Assembly (NCBI GenBank): GCA_021736575.1
Contig: JAIPFP010000043.1
Span: 1-33,069, forward strand
Reading direction: 5' to 3'
DNA length: 33,069 nucleotides
Source of the DNA: Pirellula sp.
GTDB taxonomy: Bacteria; Planctomycetota; Planctomycetia; Pirellulales; Pirellulaceae
The stretch's first letter is position 1, and each line of letters starts with the position of its first letter. The notes below the pieces were generated by a model. It made no database searches. It saw only the letters and a program-made list of their open reading frames with translations, and was not told where the DNA came from. Shown here in pieces: positions 8,715 to 29,773 of the stretch. Both the position numbers and the translations under genes were made by a program.

Positions 8715-10940
8715 GCCATACAAATGCTTGGTGGTATTGGTCCCCTCGGAAATACTGTGAGATCGATTGGGATATGCAAACATCGAGAATTTTTTGTTCA
8801 ATCGAATCAACTCATCGATCAATAGTTCGGTGGTTTGATAATGACAATTGTCGTCGCCCGTACCGTGAATCAAGAGCAAATCTCCCTTGAGTTGACCTGC
8901 AAAAGTAATAGGAGATCCTTGTTTGTAACCTTCCGCATTTTCGGTCGGTAGGTCCATGTAGCGTTCCTGGTAAATGGTGTCGTAGTACAACTGGTTAGGA
9001 ACGGGAGCCACGGATACACCGGAACGATACAAGTCAGGGTATCGAAACATGGCATTGAGTGTCATCGAACCGCCACCGCTCCACCCCCAGACGCCGATGC
9101 GTTCCGAATCGACAAACGGTTTAAGTTTGATAAATTCGCGAACTGCACTCGCTTGATCGGCAGATGCAAGAATGCCAACTTGGCGGTAGATACTTTTGCG
9201 CCATGCCCGTCCTTTGGGTGCAGGCGTTCCTCGGTTATCAATCGACAAAACGATGTAGCCCATTTGAGCAAGCATTCGGTGCCACATATCCCGTTCTCCG
9301 TTCCATTGGTCAAGAACCGATTGAGCTGCCGGTTCACAATAAACGTAGACAATCAAGGGATACTTTTTGCTTGGATCTAAATCGGCGGGTGTCATACACC
9401 AACCGTCAAACCAGTTTGATTCGTCGATAGGTATACGAAAGAACTCCGTTTTCGGCAACGCAAGCGAACTCAATCGCGTTTTAAGTGCTTGGTTCTCTTC
9501 CAGCACGAAAGTGTTTGCATGCGAATCGAGCTTGATCAAACGAGTCGTGGGAGGTTGCGTGAATTGCGAATGCGTGGCGATTGCGTATTCGAAGTCCGGC
9601 GAGAGTTTGTAGGTGTGAATGCCTGGCTGATCGCTGGGTGTAAGCCGAGTGAATTTCGTGCCGTCGATTTGGCATCGATACAGGTATTTTTGAGTTGCAT
9701 TTTCCGGACTTGCAATCAGGTAAACATGACTCTGTTTTGGATCGTAGCCAAGCAAATCGATGACGTCGAACGCGCCCGTCGTAACATCTCTAGCCCCCGT
9801 ACCGTCGAGGGCAATACTCACGATTCGTCTCCAGCCGGACTTTTCGCTGAGTGTTAGGAAACGTTGGTTGTCGTCGCACCACAGTACTTTTGGATCCGCA
9901 TCGAGCCATGCGTCATCCGTCTCTTCGAAGATTTTGCGCACGCTTTTTAACCGGGTATCTGCAAGCCAAAACCGATTGATCTTTTGACGACGGTCGAGTT
10001 GCTGAATCAGTACCTCGGAGCGACCGGGAACCCACTGCATGGCGTGAACGTAATGCTCCCGCGAATCGCCGGGTAGTTCGACCCACCACGTGTCATTCGA
10101 CTGCTGCGATGCGATTCCAATCCTTGCGGATGGGTTCGTGGTTCCAACTTTCGGATAAGGGATGTACTTAGGGCGAGGATAAAGCGCTGTGACTTGGTTT
10201 AGAAGTGGAAACTCGCCGATTCCAGATGGGTCGATTTGCCAATATGCAATTTGGCTTCCATCCTCGTTGAATTGAAAGCCATCTCTCAAGGAAAATTCCT
10301 CTTCGTAGACCCAGTCGAACGTCCCGTTGATCGTGAGTTCGTTGTCGGTTGTTGTGACCGCCTTTACTTGATCATCAACAAGGGAATGGAGATAGATGTT
10401 TCTGTCGGAGACAAATCCGACTTTGGTACCGTCTGGATTAAATTTGGCAAACATCAAACTTGCTTCCGGCAGTCGAGGAGCGACTTTTCGGAGTTGCTTG
10501 TTTGCCAATTCGAGTACCCAATAGTCGCCTCGAGTTGCGAATCGCCAAACTTTTTGACTGTTGGAAAAGATCAATATCTTGGTTTGGTCCGGCGACCATT
10601 CGTATCCATCGATGTGCAGAGGTTTTGTGGCACCAGGGGGCACAAGCCATTCGGATGCAACCAAGACCGTCTCCTTGGTTGGTTGCTCAACGTCCAGGCG
10701 AACAATGCGACTGCCCGACTCATCATGCCTTAATATCTCGAGACCGCGTCCGTTCTTTTGCCAATGACCGGTAAACGCTTTCGGACGAAAAACACGTTCA
10801 CCAAATATGGAATCCAAATCGAGCGCAGCAGCTTTGGGAGTTGGTTCCTTGATTGTCTTTTCTTGGGCCAAGGCAACATAGTTGGCGCAATCCAATAGAA
10901 GCAGCAGCGCCAAGAATGGTATGGATTTAGGCCATCGCAT
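8661..10940 (-). CDS. Secreted S9-family prolyl oligopeptidase (dipeptidyl-peptidase IV-like)
   Basis: The 759-residue protein has an N-terminal signal (RWPKSIPFLALLLLLDCANYVALAQ), then the eight-bladed DPP-IV N-terminal beta-propeller (about 50-520; GTFDWVYEEEFSLRDGFQF is a typical DPP-IV block). The catalytic domain carries GWSGGGSM (Ser about 621), HGTGDDNCH (Asp 696 or 697) and NRSHSIS (His about 728). It should cleave N-terminal dipeptides, often X-Pro, from peptides outside the cytoplasm. The frame is open from 10982, but ATG 10940 was chosen because GAGGAAA lies about 9 nt upstream and the signal peptide follows. The C-terminal coding end overlaps the convergent FhcC-like gene by 54 bp. 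Confidence 0.93.
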   Translation of the reverse strand: MRWPKSIPFLALLLLLDCANYVALAQEKTIKEPTPKAAALDLDSIFGERVFRPKAFTGHWQKNGRGLEILRHDESGSRIVRLDVEQPTKETVLVASEWLVPPGATKPLHIDGYEWSPDQTKILIFSNSQKVWRFATRGDYWVLELANKQLRKVAPRLPEASLMFAKFNPDGTKVGFVSDRNIYLHSLVDDQVKAVTTTDNELTINGTFDWVYEEEFSLRDGFQFNEDGSQIAYWQIDPSGIGEFPLLNQVTALYPRPKYIPYPKVGTTNPSARIGIASQQSNDTWWVELPGDSREHYVHAMQWVPGRSEVLIQQLDRRQKINRFWLADTRLKSVRKIFEETDDAWLDADPKVLWCDDNQRFLTLSEKSGWRRIVSIALDGTGARDVTTGAFDVIDLLGYDPKQSHVYLIASPENATQKYLYRCQIDGTKFTRLTPSDQPGIHTYKLSPDFEYAIATHSQFTQPPTTRLIKLDSHANTFVLEENQALKTRLSSLALPKTEFFRIPIDESNWFDGWCMTPADLDPSKKYPLIVYVYCEPAAQSVLDQWNGERDMWHRMLAQMGYIVLSIDNRGTPAPKGRAWRKSIYRQVGILASADQASAVREFIKLKPFVDSERIGVWGWSGGGSMTLNAMFRYPDLYRSGVSVAPVPNQLYYDTIYQERYMDLPTENAEGYKQGSPITFAGQLKGDLLLIHGTGDDNCHYQTTELLIDELIRLNKKFSMFAYPNRSHSISEGTNTTKHLYGLITDQFLRTMPPNHPRR

Positions 10941-19361: not shown

Positions 19362-19681
19362 CTTAAGACAGTTCTCACCTGTTTCTCAAGCAGGTACAAA
19401 CTTCACTTCAGATAAACGATTGGGACAATCGTGGTTCAGTGTAGAACAGTTGTCCTCAACTGTTTCTGAAGCAAGTACAAACTTCACTTCAGATAAACGA
19501 TTGGGACAATCGTGGTTCAGTGTAGAACAGTTGTCCTCAACTGTTTCTGAAGCAGGTACAAATTTCACTTCAGATAAACGATTGGGACAATCGTGGTTCA
19601 GTGTAGAACAGTTGTCCTCAACTGTTTCTGAAGCAAGTACAAACTTCACTTCAGATAAACGATTGGGACAATCGTTCTACA
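19362..19681. repeat. 81-bp tandem array of paired REP-like hairpins (3-4 units)
   Basis: The words TACAAA(C/T)TTCACTTCAG start at 19395, 19476, 19557 and 19638, an exact 81-bp period, with a degenerate half unit at the left end. Each unit holds two hairpins: AACAGTTG-TCCT-CAACTGTT and ACGATTG-GGA-CAATCGT. Read outward, both start TGTAGAAC at array ends and end in CTGAAG, so they are the same element in opposite orientation. Because 81 is a multiple of three, open frames run through on both strands; these are not taken as genes. Confidence 0.9.
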
Positions 19682-23090: not shown

Positions 23091-23258
23091 GTTCAGTGTA
23101 GAACAGTTGTCCTCAACTGTTTCTGAAGCACGTACAAACTTCACTTCAGATAAACGATTGGGACAATCGTGGTTCAGTGTAGAACAGTTGTCCTCAACTG
23201 TTTCTGAAGCAGGTACAAACTTCACTTCAGATAAACGATTGGGACAATCGTTCTACAA
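23091..23258. repeat. 81-bp paired REP-like hairpins, two units
   Basis: It has the same unit as the array at 19362-19681, with the period again exactly 81 bp (word starts 23133 and 23214). It starts TGTAGAACAGTTG and ends CAATCGTTCTAC, i.e. the outer ends are inverted. It is flanked by inverted GGGGACACC-type sequences of dispersed repeats A and B. Confidence 0.9.
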
Positions 23259-23493: not shown

Positions 23494-24423
23494 TCAAAAA
23501 AAATCGCTCGCTGCGCGATCTCGCTCCGGCTTGGCTGCCTCGTCCCTCGTTGCCATGCCTGCGCTCGCCTGCTCCGCTCGTTCTGCCTGACCTGGGCACG
23601 GACCGAGGAACAGACAGACACGGAAGCCCTGGATCCCGTCACGGCCGCCGGGCCACCCCCTGTAGCGAAACGCAGAGCGGCAGTACCTGGGCGAGAAGTC
23701 CCAGCTGCCGCCACGGAAGACGCGGAAAGCGTAAATGGCACCATCAACGAAAGGATCGCAGACGCCATTCACTCGTTTCTTGTAAACATGCTCGTCAAAC
23801 GCGTCGGCGCACCATTCGTCGACGTTACCATGCATGTCATACAAACCAAAACGATTGCCAAGTTTCAGTCCTACGTCATGCGTTTCCCCGCCGGAATTGC
23901 CCTCGTACCAGCCAGCGTCTTGCAAGGCTGCTTCGCCATCGCCGGTGTAGTACTCCGCATCAATGCCGGCGCGGCACGCATATTCCCATTGGGCTTCGGA
24001 TGGCAAGCCAACATTGAGCTCACCTCCGCCGAGCCTTTCTTTGGCATCCTGAAGCAGCGGCTTGTTTTGTAGCAATCCACACCACTGAACCGCGTCGTGC
24101 CAACTGACGTTCTCGACGGGTCGTATGTCTCCTTTGAAATCGCTTGGACTGGGCTCCAAGTTTTCCTTCTTTTTTCTTCCAACGACCGTTCGATACTGAT
24201 GTTGTGTGGTGGGAAACGCCGCCATGTAAAACGGGCAAGTGATGCGTACGAGATGCCGTGGCTCCTCATCGGGGTATTCGCCGCGTGAACCCATCAAAAA
24301 TTCGCCAGCAGGGATGCGGCGAAAAGGCATGGGGACAGTGTCGGATAGCCATAGAGTCACATCGGCTTCGGCAAGTCCTTGTTCCCAACCGGGAGTTGGT
24401 TCGGTCCGTTTTCTGTGGCTCAT
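23494..24423 (-). CDS. FGE-sulfatase (SUMF1)-fold protein with DGR-like variable C terminus, copy 1
   Basis: The 309-residue protein has no signal peptide. The FGE/C-type-lectin fold starts at FRRIPAGEFLMGSRG (about 35) and includes VENVSWHDAVQWC, GLPSEAQWEYACRAG, FGLYDMHGNVDEWC and RVFRGGSWDFSPRYCRSAFR before GFRVCLF (about 266-272). A 37-residue tail (PGQAERAEQASAGMATRDEA...) lies beyond the fold. True formylglycine enzymes have two active-site cysteines (GGSYMCHRSYC in human); here the first is replaced (GGSWDFSPRYC), so catalysis is unlikely and ligand binding is more plausible. Its ATG overlaps the stop of the ROCO-TIR gene (ATGA, 24420-24423), indicating translational coupling. Residues about 230-268 form the variable region. 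Confidence 0.9.
   Translation of the reverse strand: MSHRKRTEPTPGWEQGLAEADVTLWLSDTVPMPFRRIPAGEFLMGSRGEYPDEEPRHLVRITCPFYMAAFPTTQHQYRTVVGRKKKENLEPSPSDFKGDIRPVENVSWHDAVQWCGLLQNKPLLQDAKERLGGGELNVGLPSEAQWEYACRAGIDAEYYTGDGEAALQDAGWYEGNSGGETHDVGLKLGNRFGLYDMHGNVDEWCADAFDEHVYKKRVNGVCDPFVDGAIYAFRVFRGGSWDFSPRYCRSAFRYRGWPGGRDGIQGFRVCLFLGPCPGQAERAEQASAGMATRDEAAKPERDRAASDFF
23620..23735 (-). other. Candidate DGR variable region, copy 1
   Basis: This aligns without gaps to 27847-27962. On the coding strand the two differ at 19 of 116 positions. Seventeen differences have A in one copy, the other two are T/G pairs, and C never appears at a variable site. Eighteen fall on codon positions 1 or 2 and change residues. 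The downstream 116 bp (23504-23619) has one difference, an A/C. Upstream of the region divergence becomes ordinary and includes other base changes. This is what adenine-directed mutagenic retrohoming from one template repeat produces. Confidence 0.8.
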
Positions 24424-27400
24424 TGTCCTTCACCCGGATTCGGCATCTTTGCGTCGGCACGACCTAGTTCCGGGAGATTCAATCGCTGTGCGAGCGCTTT
24501 CAGCGCTGACTGAGCCCCACGACTCCACTTGATGTCAAAATCAAGTTTATCGCTGACGTTTTTCCCAAAATCACGAATCAAAGATTTAGCAAAGTCCTTC
24601 AACTCGTCGCGTTCGGAAAAACAGCGAGAGGGCACTTCGCCTGAGTAGTTCTGCCAGAAATCAAGGAACGCATTTCGACTGACAACGTCCCCTATGTTGC
24701 TGTGGATATGCTCGATGGGGATCACGACCGAGACAAAACTTTTTTCTTCCTTACCTACGAGTTCGTCGAAGAGACATTTCAGTTCAAAAATGCAGTCTGG
24801 TGATCGCCAATATTTGTCGCTGTGTACAACGATCACGTGAGGATGCAACGCACCATTTTTCATGAAGTTGCGAAGACTATCGCCGAAGTTGACTACGTTT
24901 TTATCGCGAACCAGGCGAACCGACTTTCGTTTGTCGCCGTGCTCTAAGGTTACGGAATGTGACGTGAGATAACGCTCGATTTCGTCGACCGGTTCTTCAT
25001 AGCCAACCGGTATTCCCGAGTCACCGTCATGTTTCGGAGGGTTCCACGCATAGGAAACGAACACCTCAATGTGATCGAGTGGCTTGCCGAGCGCATTTTG
25101 TATACTTCGCTCTTCTTTGGATGTACTCGAATTGGTTTCGCCGAGGAACGACTTTACTAACGCTCGCGCTGAATCAAGTTGCTTCTGGGGTTCATGGCCC
25201 GAGACATGAATGGTAACCGTTCCGCTTAGGCCAGTCTCGTCGATATCGCACTCGATAAGTACAAGCGTTCCATTGTCGAACTCAGTCATTATGCCGTCAA
25301 TGGCGTAAGTCGCGTCCTTGCCAAACTCGCGACCTGCGTGGACAAGCAGATTCTGCCAGTTCTGCTTGTGCATCTTGGGGAAATGCAACTGCAATTCGTT
25401 TGGCACGAAGTTCCTTCGGCGATGATCGAACTCGCGAATCAATCGGATCTCTTTAGAAGTCGGAAGGTGCTCGAAGCTGACAAATAGGTCTTGTTCACGC
25501 CAAGATTCTTTCGCTGTGCGAAGTTGGAAGCAAAGTCCGCACTGTTGCATGTAAGACAGCAGAAGCTTTTGCTCTTCAGAGCCAAAGCCAAGTTGATTCC
25601 ATGCTAGATTTCCGAGATCTTCAAGCGTAAAGCGACCATCTTCTTTCGCCAGCCATCGGTACGTTGTGCTGTCGCGTCGTCGATCTAAGATCGTATAGAG
25701 TCCGTCCAAGGCCCATTTCTGCCCCACGATGACCCGTCCTTCAAAGAGATCCTTATCCCAATAAATCCAACCGCTATTCGTTAGGAAATTCAATGTTCGA
25801 CGCAACCGATCGTCATCCAATACAAAGGTTCCAGACTCAACTGCCTCCTTTAGCTTGATGAACTTTAGCCCATCGCTATGAATCGCTCGCTCAATAGCCT
25901 CAGACAACGAACTATGAAAACGCTCTAACTCAAGTTGATTGTGTGAATCGGCGAAGACCGCGTCGGTCGTAAGTCGCTTCACCCATTGTTCCACCATTCC
26001 TTGCGCAATTTCCCAGTATGACGGTACAGCCGTGCCTTGAGTGACAACAACATCTCCCACTTCGTCTTGCAACCATTCCTCAAGGCTCTCATCCCCGCGA
26101 AGCTGACCTGTCTTCTGAAGGGAATCGATGTAAAAGCATTTGACTTCGTCCTTGAGCGTTTCAGGAACTTGTTCGCGCCAGCGCGATTCTAGCTCGGGAG
26201 TCGATCGCGAATGGCGAGCACAGACGATGGCGACTCTCGGCTTGTGTGGACAAGCCATGTGGATGTACTCAAGCCAGTACCGGAGCGGGCGAAGCTCGTC
26301 TTCATATCCACACTCAGTGTGAATCGTTGTTTGTCCATCCTGTTCCGGATTCCAAACAACAATAAAGACTGCTCCTTTGCTCATGAACAATCGATGGGTG
26401 CTATGATAGATTTCTTGACCGCCGAAGTCCCAAACGTGAGTTTGAACGTCTTCCATACTTCCATCGAGGTTGGCCTTAAACTCGAAGTCCCAAAACTGGA
26501 TACCATGCGTGCTCCCCAGTTTTTGGGCTAGGGCTGGATCGCGTCCGGTTAAGGCCAACGACAAACAGGTCTTGCCAGCATCACCGTTCCCGAGAACTAA
26601 GATTTTGCTGCGTTTGACCTCGCCATCGCCGGTTAGTTCCCGATCGGCGAAATAGGCTGCAGTGCTTTGGGCAACGTTGTCCGTGGCCGATTTCCCGTGT
26701 TCGGAAGCTGGAGGAACCAACAGGCCGCTGCCATGCAGAAACAGCGTTCGTGGCTTGCCGCGTTCACTTGGCAACTGACGCAATGCCCGCATTCCCCCCA
26801 AGTCGATATAGTCCATCGCGGAAAGGAAGTTGTTAAGTTTGGAAATTCTTTCCGCTCCACGTAATTCCAGGCGACGCAACCAGGATGGCCAATTCGGTAA
26901 AGCAAGTAGGCCAGAGCAACCATTGAAGCGAGCGTCGACCAACTCTTGTGGCCATGCAGACACCCGCTTCAGTTGCGGGCATTCGCTGGCATCCACAACG
27001 CGAAGGCTTGAATTCTGGCCAAGAACATCATTGATCCAAGATGAATCGAGCGCCTTGCAGTTCTGGATACTCAGTTCTTGCAAGTTGTCGAAATGGACTC
27101 GCTTTGGCGACGGAAGTTGAATGCATTTATCTAGGACAAGGGCCTCAATCGTGGAGGGCAAATCGAACTGCGTATTGATGTTCTCGCAGCTTCGCACATC
27201 CATGCATTCGAGTTTCGGCGGCAGTGGTGGCAAATGGGTTAGGCTCTCAATTTGCCAAAGATGTAGGTGAGACAAATTTGGATATAGGTTGGCCAAGTCG
27301 TCTGGAATGAGCGTTGAGATCAACTTGGGTTTGCCGTCCTCACTTTCTAAAGTCCCGATGACAATCTTGGTGACTTGCTCATTGGCATTCCAGTCGATGG

Positions 27401-27491
27401 GACGTTTCGAATCGGGAGCGTCGGCGTCGAACCAATGCAATCCATCTCCGGAAAAAAGAGCGATCTCAGTTTCGGGGCAAATCGTTTTCAT
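24420..27491 (-). CDS. LRR-Roc-COR GTPase with C-terminal TIR domain (ROCO protein)
   Basis: The 1023-residue protein has leucine-rich repeats at about 65-255 (LSHLHLWQIESLTHLPPLPP, LQELSIQNCKALDSSW, LRRLELRGAERISKL). A Roc GTPase at about 295-460 has P-loop GNGDAGKT (301-308) and DFGGQE (355-360). The COR region spans about 490-770 (SGWIYWDKDLFEGRVIVGQK). The TIR domain runs from about 808 (IEVFVSYAW) with VIVVHSDKYWRSPDCIFELK; Glu 903 sits where TIR NADases place their catalytic glutamate. ROCO proteins switch on nucleotide state, and bacterial TIRs often deplete NAD+ or make signal nucleotides in defence. There is no membrane segment, so it is cytoplasmic. It lies between two FGE-fold genes on the same strand and overlaps the downstream one. 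NAD cleavage is inferred. Confidence 0.92.
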   Translation of the reverse strand: MKTICPETEIALFSGDGLHWFDADAPDSKRPIDWNANEQVTKIVIGTLESEDGKPKLISTLIPDDLANLYPNLSHLHLWQIESLTHLPPLPPKLECMDVRSCENINTQFDLPSTIEALVLDKCIQLPSPKRVHFDNLQELSIQNCKALDSSWINDVLGQNSSLRVVDASECPQLKRVSAWPQELVDARFNGCSGLLALPNWPSWLRRLELRGAERISKLNNFLSAMDYIDLGGMRALRQLPSERGKPRTLFLHGSGLLVPPASEHGKSATDNVAQSTAAYFADRELTGDGEVKRSKILVLGNGDAGKTCLSLALTGRDPALAQKLGSTHGIQFWDFEFKANLDGSMEDVQTHVWDFGGQEIYHSTHRLFMSKGAVFIVVWNPEQDGQTTIHTECGYEDELRPLRYWLEYIHMACPHKPRVAIVCARHSRSTPELESRWREQVPETLKDEVKCFYIDSLQKTGQLRGDESLEEWLQDEVGDVVVTQGTAVPSYWEIAQGMVEQWVKRLTTDAVFADSHNQLELERFHSSLSEAIERAIHSDGLKFIKLKEAVESGTFVLDDDRLRRTLNFLTNSGWIYWDKDLFEGRVIVGQKWALDGLYTILDRRRDSTTYRWLAKEDGRFTLEDLGNLAWNQLGFGSEEQKLLLSYMQQCGLCFQLRTAKESWREQDLFVSFEHLPTSKEIRLIREFDHRRRNFVPNELQLHFPKMHKQNWQNLLVHAGREFGKDATYAIDGIMTEFDNGTLVLIECDIDETGLSGTVTIHVSGHEPQKQLDSARALVKSFLGETNSSTSKEERSIQNALGKPLDHIEVFVSYAWNPPKHDGDSGIPVGYEEPVDEIERYLTSHSVTLEHGDKRKSVRLVRDKNVVNFGDSLRNFMKNGALHPHVIVVHSDKYWRSPDCIFELKCLFDELVGKEEKSFVSVVIPIEHIHSNIGDVVSRNAFLDFWQNYSGEVPSRCFSERDELKDFAKSLIRDFGKNVSDKLDFDIKWSRGAQSALKALAQRLNLPELGRADAKMPNPGEGQ

Positions 27492-27506
27492 GATCGTTGG
27501 TTTCCA

Positions 27507-27534
27507 AGTGTAGAACAGTTGTCCTCAACTGTTC
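27507..27534. repeat. Single REP-like hairpin
   Basis: AGTGTAGAACAGTTGTCCTC followed by AACTGTTC is one half of the 81-bp paired element found at 19362 and 23091. It lies 16 bp upstream of the ROCO-TIR start codon, inside its leader. Confidence 0.8.
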
Positions 27535-27576
27535 ATGGCGTTGTAGTTATCGTGCTCTCTGTCGCGACTGTTTTTA

Positions 27577-27653
27577 ATCTCTGCGTTCTCTGCGTTCTCT
27601 GCGTTTCCAAATCGAAATGATTAAAACGCAGAGATGCGGAGAGCGCCGAGAGT
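27577..27653. repeat. Inverted repeat of CTCTGCG type
   Basis: CTCTGCGTT repeated about three times (TTCTCTGCG units) on the left faces AAAACGCAGAGATGCGGAGA on the right, giving imperfect arms of about 28 bp. It could form a hairpin between the FGE-fold gene and the ROCO-TIR gene and act as terminator or attenuator. Confidence 0.65.
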
Positions 27654-27687
27654 AGACGGCAATTGTCTGTTGAAGTTCAGTCATCTT

Positions 27688-28578
27688 TCACCGAGGCGTA
27701 AATCTTGACTCTTCAAAATCGTCTAAAAAATCGCTCGCTGCGCGATCTCGCTCCGGCGTGGCTGCCTCGTCCCTCGTTGCCATGCCTGCGCTCGCCTGCT
27801 CCGCTCGTTCTGCCTGACCTGGGCACGGACCGAGGAACAGACAGACTCGGAAGCCCAGGTCCCCGAAACGGCCGTCGGGCCTCCTCCTGTAGCGAAACGC
27901 AGAGCGGCAGAACCAGGGCGAGTCGACCCAGCAGCCGCCACGGATGACGCGGTAAGCGTTATTGGCACCATCAACAAATGGATCACAAATGTTGTTCACC
28001 CGTTTTCTGTACGCATGCTCGTCGAACGCGTCGGCGCACCATTCGTAGACGTTGCCGTGCATGTCGTACAAACCGAAATCATTTCCCTGCAACTGGCCGA
28101 CGAGCTGCGTTTTTGATTCCGAATTTCCGCCATACCAGCCGGCCTCCGCTAGCGCCGATTCGCCGTCACCAGTGTAGTATTCCGTATCCGTGCCTGCGCG
28201 GCACGCGTATTCCCACTGTGCCTCCGTCGGCAAGCCAACTTTGTATCTCTCTGGCAATTGAATGCCGCAAACTATATTCAGCCAAGAACAATATTGAGTC
28301 GCGTCATGCCAATCCAAGTTCTCTGCAGGGTGAAGCGGATTGTTGGGAAAGCCGTTCTCATGTTCTGGCCTCCACTGGGCAAACTGTTGTTGAGTTACCG
28401 GAAAGGTCCCAAGATAAAACGGTCGCGTGATTCGAACCGGGTGCCGTGGTTCTTCGCGGTGAGAGTCGCCTCTGGATCCCATGCGAAAACTGCCCGCGGG
28501 AATCAACTGAAACGTCATCTCAATGCCGTTGCCTAGGTCAAGTTTGAAAGCTGGTTCCGTTTGCAGGTAGCTGGGCAT
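27688..28578 (-). CDS. FGE-sulfatase (SUMF1)-fold protein with DGR-like variable C terminus, copy 2
   Basis: The 296-residue protein has no signal peptide. The fold begins FQLIPAGSFRMGSRGDSH (about 23) and contains PVTQQQFAQW, AENLDWHDATQYCSWLN, VGLPTEAQWEYACRAG, NDFGLYDMHGNVYEWC and RVIRGGCWVDSPWFCRSAFR before GFRVCLF. As in copy 1, the position of the first catalytic cysteine is not cysteine (GGCWVDSPWFC), so sulfatase maturation is unlikely. Residues about 206-244 are the variable region. The tail after the fold is nearly identical to copy 1 but continues DFLDDFEESRFTPR because a T tract is shorter. It lies 196 bp upstream of the ROCO-TIR gene on the same strand. Confidence 0.9.
   Translation of the reverse strand: MPSYLQTEPAFKLDLGNGIEMTFQLIPAGSFRMGSRGDSHREEPRHPVRITRPFYLGTFPVTQQQFAQWRPEHENGFPNNPLHPAENLDWHDATQYCSWLNIVCGIQLPERYKVGLPTEAQWEYACRAGTDTEYYTGDGESALAEAGWYGGNSESKTQLVGQLQGNDFGLYDMHGNVYEWCADAFDEHAYRKRVNNICDPFVDGANNAYRVIRGGCWVDSPWFCRSAFRYRRRPDGRFGDLGFRVCLFLGPCPGQAERAEQASAGMATRDEAATPERDRAASDFLDDFEESRFTPR
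27847..27962 (-). other. Candidate DGR variable region, copy 2
   Basis: This is the partner of 23620-23735, with a constant offset of 4227 bp and no gaps. Codons at varied sites are mostly of the A-containing type (AAT AAC, TAC, AGG AGG, GAC). That suggests this copy is closer to the template than copy 1, where the same sites read ATT TAC, TTC, GGG TGG, GGC. Confidence 0.8.
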
Positions 28579-28908: not shown

Positions 28909-28949
28909 TCCCCCGTTGTTCGTGCTACCGAATCCATGGGCTCGCGCGG

Positions 28950-29754
28950 GATAAACCCCAAGGGCATTCAAGGCGTGCCATCTGGCTTTATGCCAGTGGT
29001 AATTGACCTTCGCCCTAGCGTGAAGGTAACGATCCCCTGGGATAAACCCAAGGGCATTCAATGCATGCCATCTGGCTTTGCGCCAGTGGTAATTGACCTT
29101 CGCTCTAGCATGAAGGTAACGATCCCCTGGGATAAACCCAGGGGCATTCAATGCATGCCATCTGGCTTTACGCCAGTGGTAATTGACCTTCGCCCTAGCA
29201 TGAAGGTAACGAACCCCTGGGATAAACCCAAGGGCATTCAATGCATGCCATCTGGCTTTATGCCAGTGGTAATTGACCTTCGCCCTAGCATGAAGGTAAC
29301 CAACCCCTGGGATAAACCCAAGGGCATTCAATGCATGCCATCTGGCTTTATGCCAGTGGTAATTGACCTTCGCCCTAGCATGAAGGTAACCAACCCTTGG
29401 GATAAACCCAAGGGCATTCAATGCATGCCATCTGGCTTTATGCCAGTGGTAATTGACCTTCGCCCTAGCGTGAAGGTAACGATCCCCTGGGATAAACCCA
29501 AGGGCATTCAATGCATGCCATCTGGCTTTACGCCGGTGGTAATTGACCTTCGCCCTAGCATGGAGGTAACGATCCCTTGGGATAAACCCAAGGGCATTCA
29601 ATGCATGCCATCTTGCTTTACGCCAGTGGTAATTGACCTTCGCCCTAGCGTGAAGGTAACGATCCCCTGGGATAAACCCAAGGGCATTCAATGCATGCCA
29701 TCTGGCTTTATGCCAGTGGTAATTGACCTTCGCCCTAGCATGAAGGTAACGATC
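28950..29754. repeat. 90-bp tandem array, nine units
   Basis: The unit starts GATAAACCCAAGGGCATTCA and begins at 28950, 29041, 29131, 29221, 29311, 29401, 29491, 29581 and 29671; the first unit has one extra base. Each unit can form CCCTTGGG-ATAAA-CCCAAGGG across the junction, CTGGC-TTTAT-GCCAG, and ACCTTC...GAAGGT. Since 90 is a multiple of three, frames of 416 codons (forward) and 269 codons (reverse) remain open. There is no start context or domain to support either as a gene. Confidence 0.92.
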
Positions 29755-29773
29755 CGCCCAATTCTAAAATGGG

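Follow-up and report, generated by a model that had tools for sequence, protein, structure and literature searches.

The FGE-type genes FGE1 and FGE2, which lie on either side of a Roco-type (Roc-COR) GTPase gene in a 33,069-nt stretch of DNA from Pirellula sp. (contig JAIPFP010000043.1 of assembly GCA_021736575.1; the whole stretch is referred to as the window), are very probably paired targets of a diversity-generating retroelement (DGR), the cognate template repeat (TR) and reverse transcriptase (RT) of which would be unassembled or recently lost and would act, or have acted, in trans. The genome concerned is a metagenome-assembled genome (MAG) in 353 contigs with a completeness of 94.76% and a contamination of 3.24%. 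According to the proposed mechanism, a DGR reverse transcriptase would introduce errors at adenines when copying the template RNA, and the cDNA would be written into the C-terminal ends of FGE1 and FGE2, with the result of FGE-fold proteins with new, putative binding surfaces; the template and the RT would act, or have acted, from unassembled or since lost sequence. By analogy, the two FGE proteins might serve as diversified sensors, for which the Roc-COR protein, TIR-like at its C-terminus, would be the signalling partner.

Paired variable regions of FGE1 and FGE2

Positions 23504-23735 align with 27731-27962 over 232 nt without a gap and with 20 differences, 19 of which fall within the first 116 bases of the coding strand (23735 down to 23620 and 27962 down to 27847, respectively). 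On this strand, 17 of the 19 differences in the variable half include an A, two are T/G pairs and none includes a C; the tail half of the alignment contains a single difference, A/C. Codon positions 1 and 2 are affected nine times each and position 3 once, and 15 of the codons hit in the variable half are changed non-synonymously and one synonymously. An earlier reading of this DNA from the sequence alone (the sequence-only reading) had reported the gapless alignment, the 19 differences in 116 bp with their base make-up, eighteen changes at codon positions 1 or 2 and the A/C difference in the other half, and each of these numbers was reproduced; the homogenised block is longer than given there and comprises 251 nt with 20 differences (23498-23748 and 27725-27975). 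Its upstream edge is abrupt (after codon 225 of FGE1; the last difference before it is TTC/TTT), and on the 3' side the block is completed by a 122-nt tail with one difference that ends at a T run.

The same gene pair upstream of the block served as internal control (201 aligned codons with 227 nucleotide differences and 55 synonymous codons). Differences containing C account for 113/227 upstream versus 0/19 in the block (p=8.8e-6), those containing A for 121/227 versus 17/19 (p=0.003), and those at codon position 3 for 114/227 versus 1/19 (p=7e-5). The divergence in the block is well beyond chance and other in kind than the divergence just upstream. Of the 19 differences, 14 are A/T and on their own say nothing about the strand; what is strand-specific is the lack of C and, most importantly, the comparison with templates.

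The templates of four other DGRs were compared in register over the 116 sites: those of locus L057 (Planctomicrobium MAG, CAMATH010000049.1), locus L056 (Verrucomicrobiia MAG), contig C180 of the window's own assembly, and locus L051 (genome G237 of the same family). In the L057 template, 15 of the 19 variable sites coincide with an A (27 A among 116 sites, p=1.5e-8) and only four fall among the 89 non-A sites; the corresponding numbers are 14/19 for L056 as well as for C180 (30 A among 116 sites and p=1.9e-6 in either case) and 12/19 for L051 (29 A among 116 sites, p=1.2e-4). Template C, G and T showed no enrichment for window-variable sites in any of the four templates (lowest p 0.46). At the non-A sites, the two window copies agree with the template at 66 and 67 of 89 positions (L057), 61 and 62 of 86 (L056), 60 and 61 of 86 (C180), and 65 of 87 twice (L051).

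At the L057 locus a complete DGR is present: its template, RT and HRDC-type gene are accompanied by two FGE targets and by an LRR-Roc-COR-TIR gene related to that of the window. The mismatches between template and variable region (VR) are located at template A in 17/17 and 16/16 cases (33/33), and the RT carries the motif IGALTSQ, which we take to be the IGxxxSQ motif of DGR-type RTs. Locus L056 (G397:C7; JAUICH010000040.1), on a contig of 35.9 kb, comprises a template and three FGE targets, with mismatches at template A in 17/19 and 22/23 cases and in 18/33 cases in the third, diverged target. An exact search for the edge pattern of the variable region, GFRVCLF[L/P]GP, revealed three stretches in genome contigs and no match in viral contigs; in the window's family the pattern occurred in one of 241 genomes, the window's own. 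Among 19 loci examined, ten contained A-biased TR/VR pairs (fractions of 0.78 to 1.0), six of these loci being new in that comparison.

A to C changes amount to 1/33 in L057, 1/14 in C180, and 4/39 (two close targets) and 4/18 (diverged target) in L056. The missing C of the window has its counterpart in these sister DGRs and not in a general rule: As described in part of a study on a reconstituted Bordetella-phage DGR, the A-to-N spectrum is context-dependent and A to C is not rare at AC sites (PMC12875486). The L057 targets likewise share a tail beyond the template-matching part (folding strong in one, z=-5.20, and not in the other, z=-0.23). The near-identical tail of the window genes probably serves as a cis-acting element or arose as a by-product of homogenisation, a cis role being plausible and conversion between the two genes the alternative. 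To explain the whole pattern without any retroelement, by recent gene conversion and subsequent diversifying selection acting on the exposed C-terminal surface, is highly improbable: The near-identical tail, which lies outside any template homology known here, is compatible with conversion, and selection could favour non-synonymous changes, but selection leaves unexplained both the absence of C and the placement of the differences on template A, and not C, G or T, of other genomes, and the corresponding region of the sister locus L057 is demonstrably copied from its TR.

In the FGE protein search, at least 7995 candidates were scored (7994 at E<=1e-3; 120 listed); 29 sequences including FGE1 were aligned with FGE2, and the relatives were compared upstream and at the 15 window-variable codons. 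Among the aligned matches listed, P0024, P0026 and P0035 are more than 70% identical to FGE1 upstream (206/228, 208/228 and 183/223 identical positions) and agree with it at 0, 1 and 2 of the 15 window-variable codons, respectively; ten aligned relatives above the same threshold to FGE2 share 143-166 of 203 upstream positions and 2-5 of the 15 variable codons. The remaining variable-region codons are kept at 18-20 of 24 positions in these relatives. Upstream similarity combined with the loss at the variable codons indicates that the same codons have been scrambled between otherwise close genes.

The best sequence match of FGE2 in the PDB is TvpA (2Y3C, E=8.2e-26), ahead of the true FGEs, and TvpA is also the first Foldseek match (E=5.7e-21) of the FGE2 AlphaFold model computed from 81 sequences (predicted local distance difference test score, pLDDT, 88.2; residues 267-285 below 50), which replaced an earlier low-confidence model from 30 sequences (pLDDT 56.2). 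In both genes the variable region is situated near the 3' end of a gene of the C-type-lectin (CLec)/FGE fold, a feature of DGR targets; with TvpA first by sequence and by fold, the previous assignment of the variable region to the C-terminal end of an FGE fold of the classic DGR-target type is upheld. Taken together, the four templates, the scrambled relatives, the likeness to TvpA and the complete sister DGR strongly support the proposal that both genes are DGR targets.

The residue make-up of the variable columns was recorded for 83 of 121 homologues that were matched by a regular expression (38 dropped): At the L057 AAY codons 628/747 residues can be obtained from AAY through A-to-G or A-to-T changes, versus 701/1660 in comparison columns at A-free L057 codons; the L057 codons are not those of the window's own template, and no claim is based on these counts. 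The 21 phage and 491 plasmid records matching FGE2 all have less than 60% identity and were, therefore, regarded as general FGE relatives, and a phage or plasmid origin was rejected. The stretches taken from G385, G138 and G368 and passed through the same filter contain FGE-type genes without a TR/VR pair.

Search for the template and the reverse transcriptase

Several results weigh against the interpretation as a trans-acting DGR with its target pair. None of the four templates is cognate, the best one (L057) fitting at 67 of 89 non-A sites, and a looser gapped comparison with 19 loci, many of them from the genus, yielded no better template than that of L057 (86/110); a true template should match its targets at all non-A sites, as stated in a section of PMC10907252. 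In the window's own genome, both a DNA search for the variable block and the search for the edge pattern across the assembly recovered only the two window copies and no cognate template, and at the window locus the targets are not accompanied by a DGR-type RT with its accessory gene. A hairpin like that of the one L057 tail is unsupported in the window tails (z=-0.24 and -1.00). The comparison covers two copies from one assembly, the nearest proxy for population variation being the scrambling among close relatives, and present activity is therefore conjectural. With respect to the Roc-COR protein, the matches to TIR_2 at the C-terminus (E=2.7e-4) and to LRR families at the N-terminus (E about 1e-3) remain below the Pfam cut-offs, and the PADLOC-DB models assigned no family to any of the three window proteins.

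The sequence-only reading had placed RT and template elsewhere in the genome. The searches of the assembly, which gave two copies only, did not bear this out; they do not refute it either, since the incompleteness of the MAG implies an absence from the assembly and not from the organism. Of the third copy of the block, the DGR-type RT and the accessory gene that were to be sought as a check, no matching template emerged; one DGR-type RT with an HRDC-type gene did, on contig C180, along with a template of its own. RVT_1 matches in the assembly are confined to C347 (PQGGVVSP) and C180 (PIGSLTSQ), motifs that we take to be group-II-intron-like and DGR-type, respectively; the HRDC-type query matched C180 only, plus weakly C274.

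Contig C180 (G000, L005) harbors a second DGR of the same assembly, with an HRDC-type gene and three FGE targets (Table 1); a gene for a TIR-domain protein that also matches AAA weakly lies next to this DGR. The C180 template and its own targets, two on C180 and one on C269, agree at 81-89% overall, and in the one target checked the mismatches are at A in 14/14 cases over 126 nt and in 14/18 cases over 136 nt (0.78). The 98% identity of its RT to that of the sister genome G454 indicates that C180 is native to the genome, the tetranucleotide comparison with the window being indecisive. Relatives of the C180-type RT at E<=1e-20 were present in 12 of 27 genomes of the window's genus (not all of them demonstrated DGRs); together with the A-biased TR/VR pairs at several loci, this suggests that DGR-type RTs are native to the genus and that DGRs are common in it.

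That the C180 DGR writes the window pair in trans from its own template is, nevertheless, very unlikely. Its RT is the sole one of DGR type found in the assembly and has the aforementioned counterpart in G454, 14 of the 19 window sites align with A of its template, and the overall identity of 67 and 70 of 116 positions is above the 50% threshold for remote variable proteins given in part of PMC7517822; however, 25-26 of the 86 non-A sites mismatch, and the element's own targets fit far better. The C180 template was, thus, ruled out as template of the window pair by the non-A mismatches, and in consequence the C180 RT could be responsible only via another, unseen template.

It is also conceivable, if rather doubtful, that the window pair is a relic, i.e. 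that the diversifying DGR has since been lost by the lineage and the variable regions are frozen and subject to drift only. Consistent with a relic, the cognate template and RT are absent from the assembly, and the Verrucomicrobiia genome G397 possesses a template and three targets with RVT_1 matches on two other contigs, the motif of which (PQGAPTSP) presumably deviates from the IGxxxSQ of DGR-type enzymes; RTs therefore do become separated or lost, or else they escape assembly. A relic is opposed by the almost complete lack of synonymous drift in the 251-nt block (one synonymous codon), which points to recent homogenisation, by the open reading frames of both genes, and by the incompleteness of the MAG. 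FGE1 and FGE2 represent a genuine DGR target pair that is orphaned in the assembly and is likely either written in trans or recently orphaned.

The putative Roc-COR partner and the layout of the locus

The gene encoded between FGE1 and FGE2 is of Roco type, with Roc (58.9 bits, cut-off 27) followed by COR-A (45.4 bits, cut-off 35.3) in Pfam. Relatives of its product with 27-31% identity are encoded on all three contigs with the edge pattern and match Pfam LRR_4, Roc, COR-A and TIR_2, with the COR-A matches of L055 and L079 and the TIR_2 match of L056 falling short of the cut-off. Across 396 genomes of the order, the Roc-COR protein was detected at E<=1e-30 in that of the window only and is accordingly sporadic. 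The window's own genome contains a second, diverged Roc-COR copy (G000:C43:12404-14266; L073, L083) with 29% identity and one stop codon within the match; no PF03781 match is listed on this contig C43.

FGE1 and FGE2 are likely fast-changing sensors for the Roc-COR GTPase protein, as judged from the linkage in the window and on the three edge-pattern contigs and from the analogy with DGR-diversified conflict systems described in parts of PMC10907252 and PMC7159879. The more far-reaching proposal, that the signalling hub of an immune module might be a bacterial GTPase of the Roco type (Roc-COR, LRRK2-like), LRR-like at one end and TIR-like at the other, and that the separate FGE-fold antigen sensors of this module are pairwise hypermutated in trans by a retroelement, is put forward tentatively, as somewhat less than an even prospect; if true, it would amount to an immune system with diversified receptors that relies on a Roco GTPase in place of a STAND NTPase.

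Table 1. Positions of the features in the window and of the second DGR of the assembly (ORF, open reading frame)
Feature	Position	Strand	Basis or remark
FGE1, target gene 1, FGE-sulfatase-domain protein, 309 aa	23494..24423	-	ORF; PF03781 E=2.3e-40
Variable region of FGE1	23620..23748	-	19 sites differ from the FGE2 copy within 23735-23620; 23736-23748 identical
Near-identical tail after FGE1 variable region, encodes C-terminal extension	23498..23619	-	1 difference/122 nt
Roco-type gene, 1023 aa	24420..27491	-	Roc E=7.6e-16, COR-A E=9.7e-12; relatives in L055, L056, L079
FGE2, target gene 2, FGE-sulfatase-domain protein, 296 aa	27688..28578	-	ORF; PF03781 E=2.8e-47; top PDB match TvpA 2Y3C
Variable region of FGE2	27847..27975	-	alignment with FGE1 copy; sites correspond to A in the templates of other DGRs
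Near-identical tail after FGE2 variable region	27725..27846	-	copy comparison with FGE1 tail
C180 RT	C180 10382-11461	-	RVT_1 match, PIGSLTSQ
C180 TR	C180 about 10317-10452		
Targets of the C180 template	C180 12163-12288 and 7152-7278; C269:2713-2837		

The palindrome-like 20-mer AACAGTTGTCCTCAACTGTT occurs in six exact copies in three clusters of the window (19445-19464, 19526-19545, 19607-19626, 23102-23121, 23183-23202, 27514-27533), two of which flank the FGE1/Roc-COR block at its edges. Upstream of FGE2, a 90-bp unit is tandemly repeated nine times (28948-29755, 95% matches) and is adjoined by a match to the Acido-Lenti-1 RNA (RF01687, 28782-28827).

Comparison with known systems

FGE-fold, paired and remote DGR targets have already been published. 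The designation of the pair as undescribed in the sequence-only reading therefore fails for the FGE-fold and remote targets as such and may hold for this pair with its Roc-COR partner: In the open-access library searched (subscription papers and preprints being outside the scope), the Roc/Roco mentions shown for papers on DGRs stood in the reference lists, and a search on Roc-COR/TIR gave no paper. Hypermutated FGE-fold sensors beside a Roc-COR-TIR gene, as suggested for the window and the three edge-pattern contigs, would constitute a recurring, testable locus that bears on what cellular DGR targets recognise. In addition, the window illustrates that DGR targets are recognisable without RT or template in view; according to part of Roux et al. 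(PMC8144416), remote targets are overlooked by RT-first surveys of metagenome contigs.

As in TvpA of Treponema denticola (2Y3C) and other DGR proteins of the C-type-lectin/FGE fold, the variable region is situated at the C-terminal end of an FGE-like fold; in contrast to the TvpA-type proteins, those of the window possess a conserved tail, are paired around a Roc-COR gene and lack a template in the assembly. The DGR-diversified conflict systems described in part of PMC7159879 also have FGE/CLec targets, frequently a pair at one locus, in the neighbourhood of NTPase and TIR-type genes, and some of these loci are written in trans or without an intact cassette, comparable to the window; the partner in the window is, however, a separately encoded Roc-COR GTPase and not a target-fused STAND NTPase or a MoxR-vWA set. 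In Thiohalocapsa PB-PSB1, as covered in part of PMC10907252, some targets agree at every non-A site with a template that belongs to a different locus; for the targets of DGR 7 the genome offers no perfect match, intact-cassette variants being revealed by long reads. The cyanobacterial remote variable proteins resemble the window pair in their CLec-fold targets distant from the RT, but in the corresponding part of PMC7517822 a TR identity of more than 50% served to link them to a DGR of their own genome; for the window pair only C180 passes this loose threshold, yet it fails at the non-A sites. The L057 locus, finally, is like the window in its two FGE targets and the LRR-Roc-COR-TIR gene, and unlike it in having the RT, the HRDC-type gene and the template on site.
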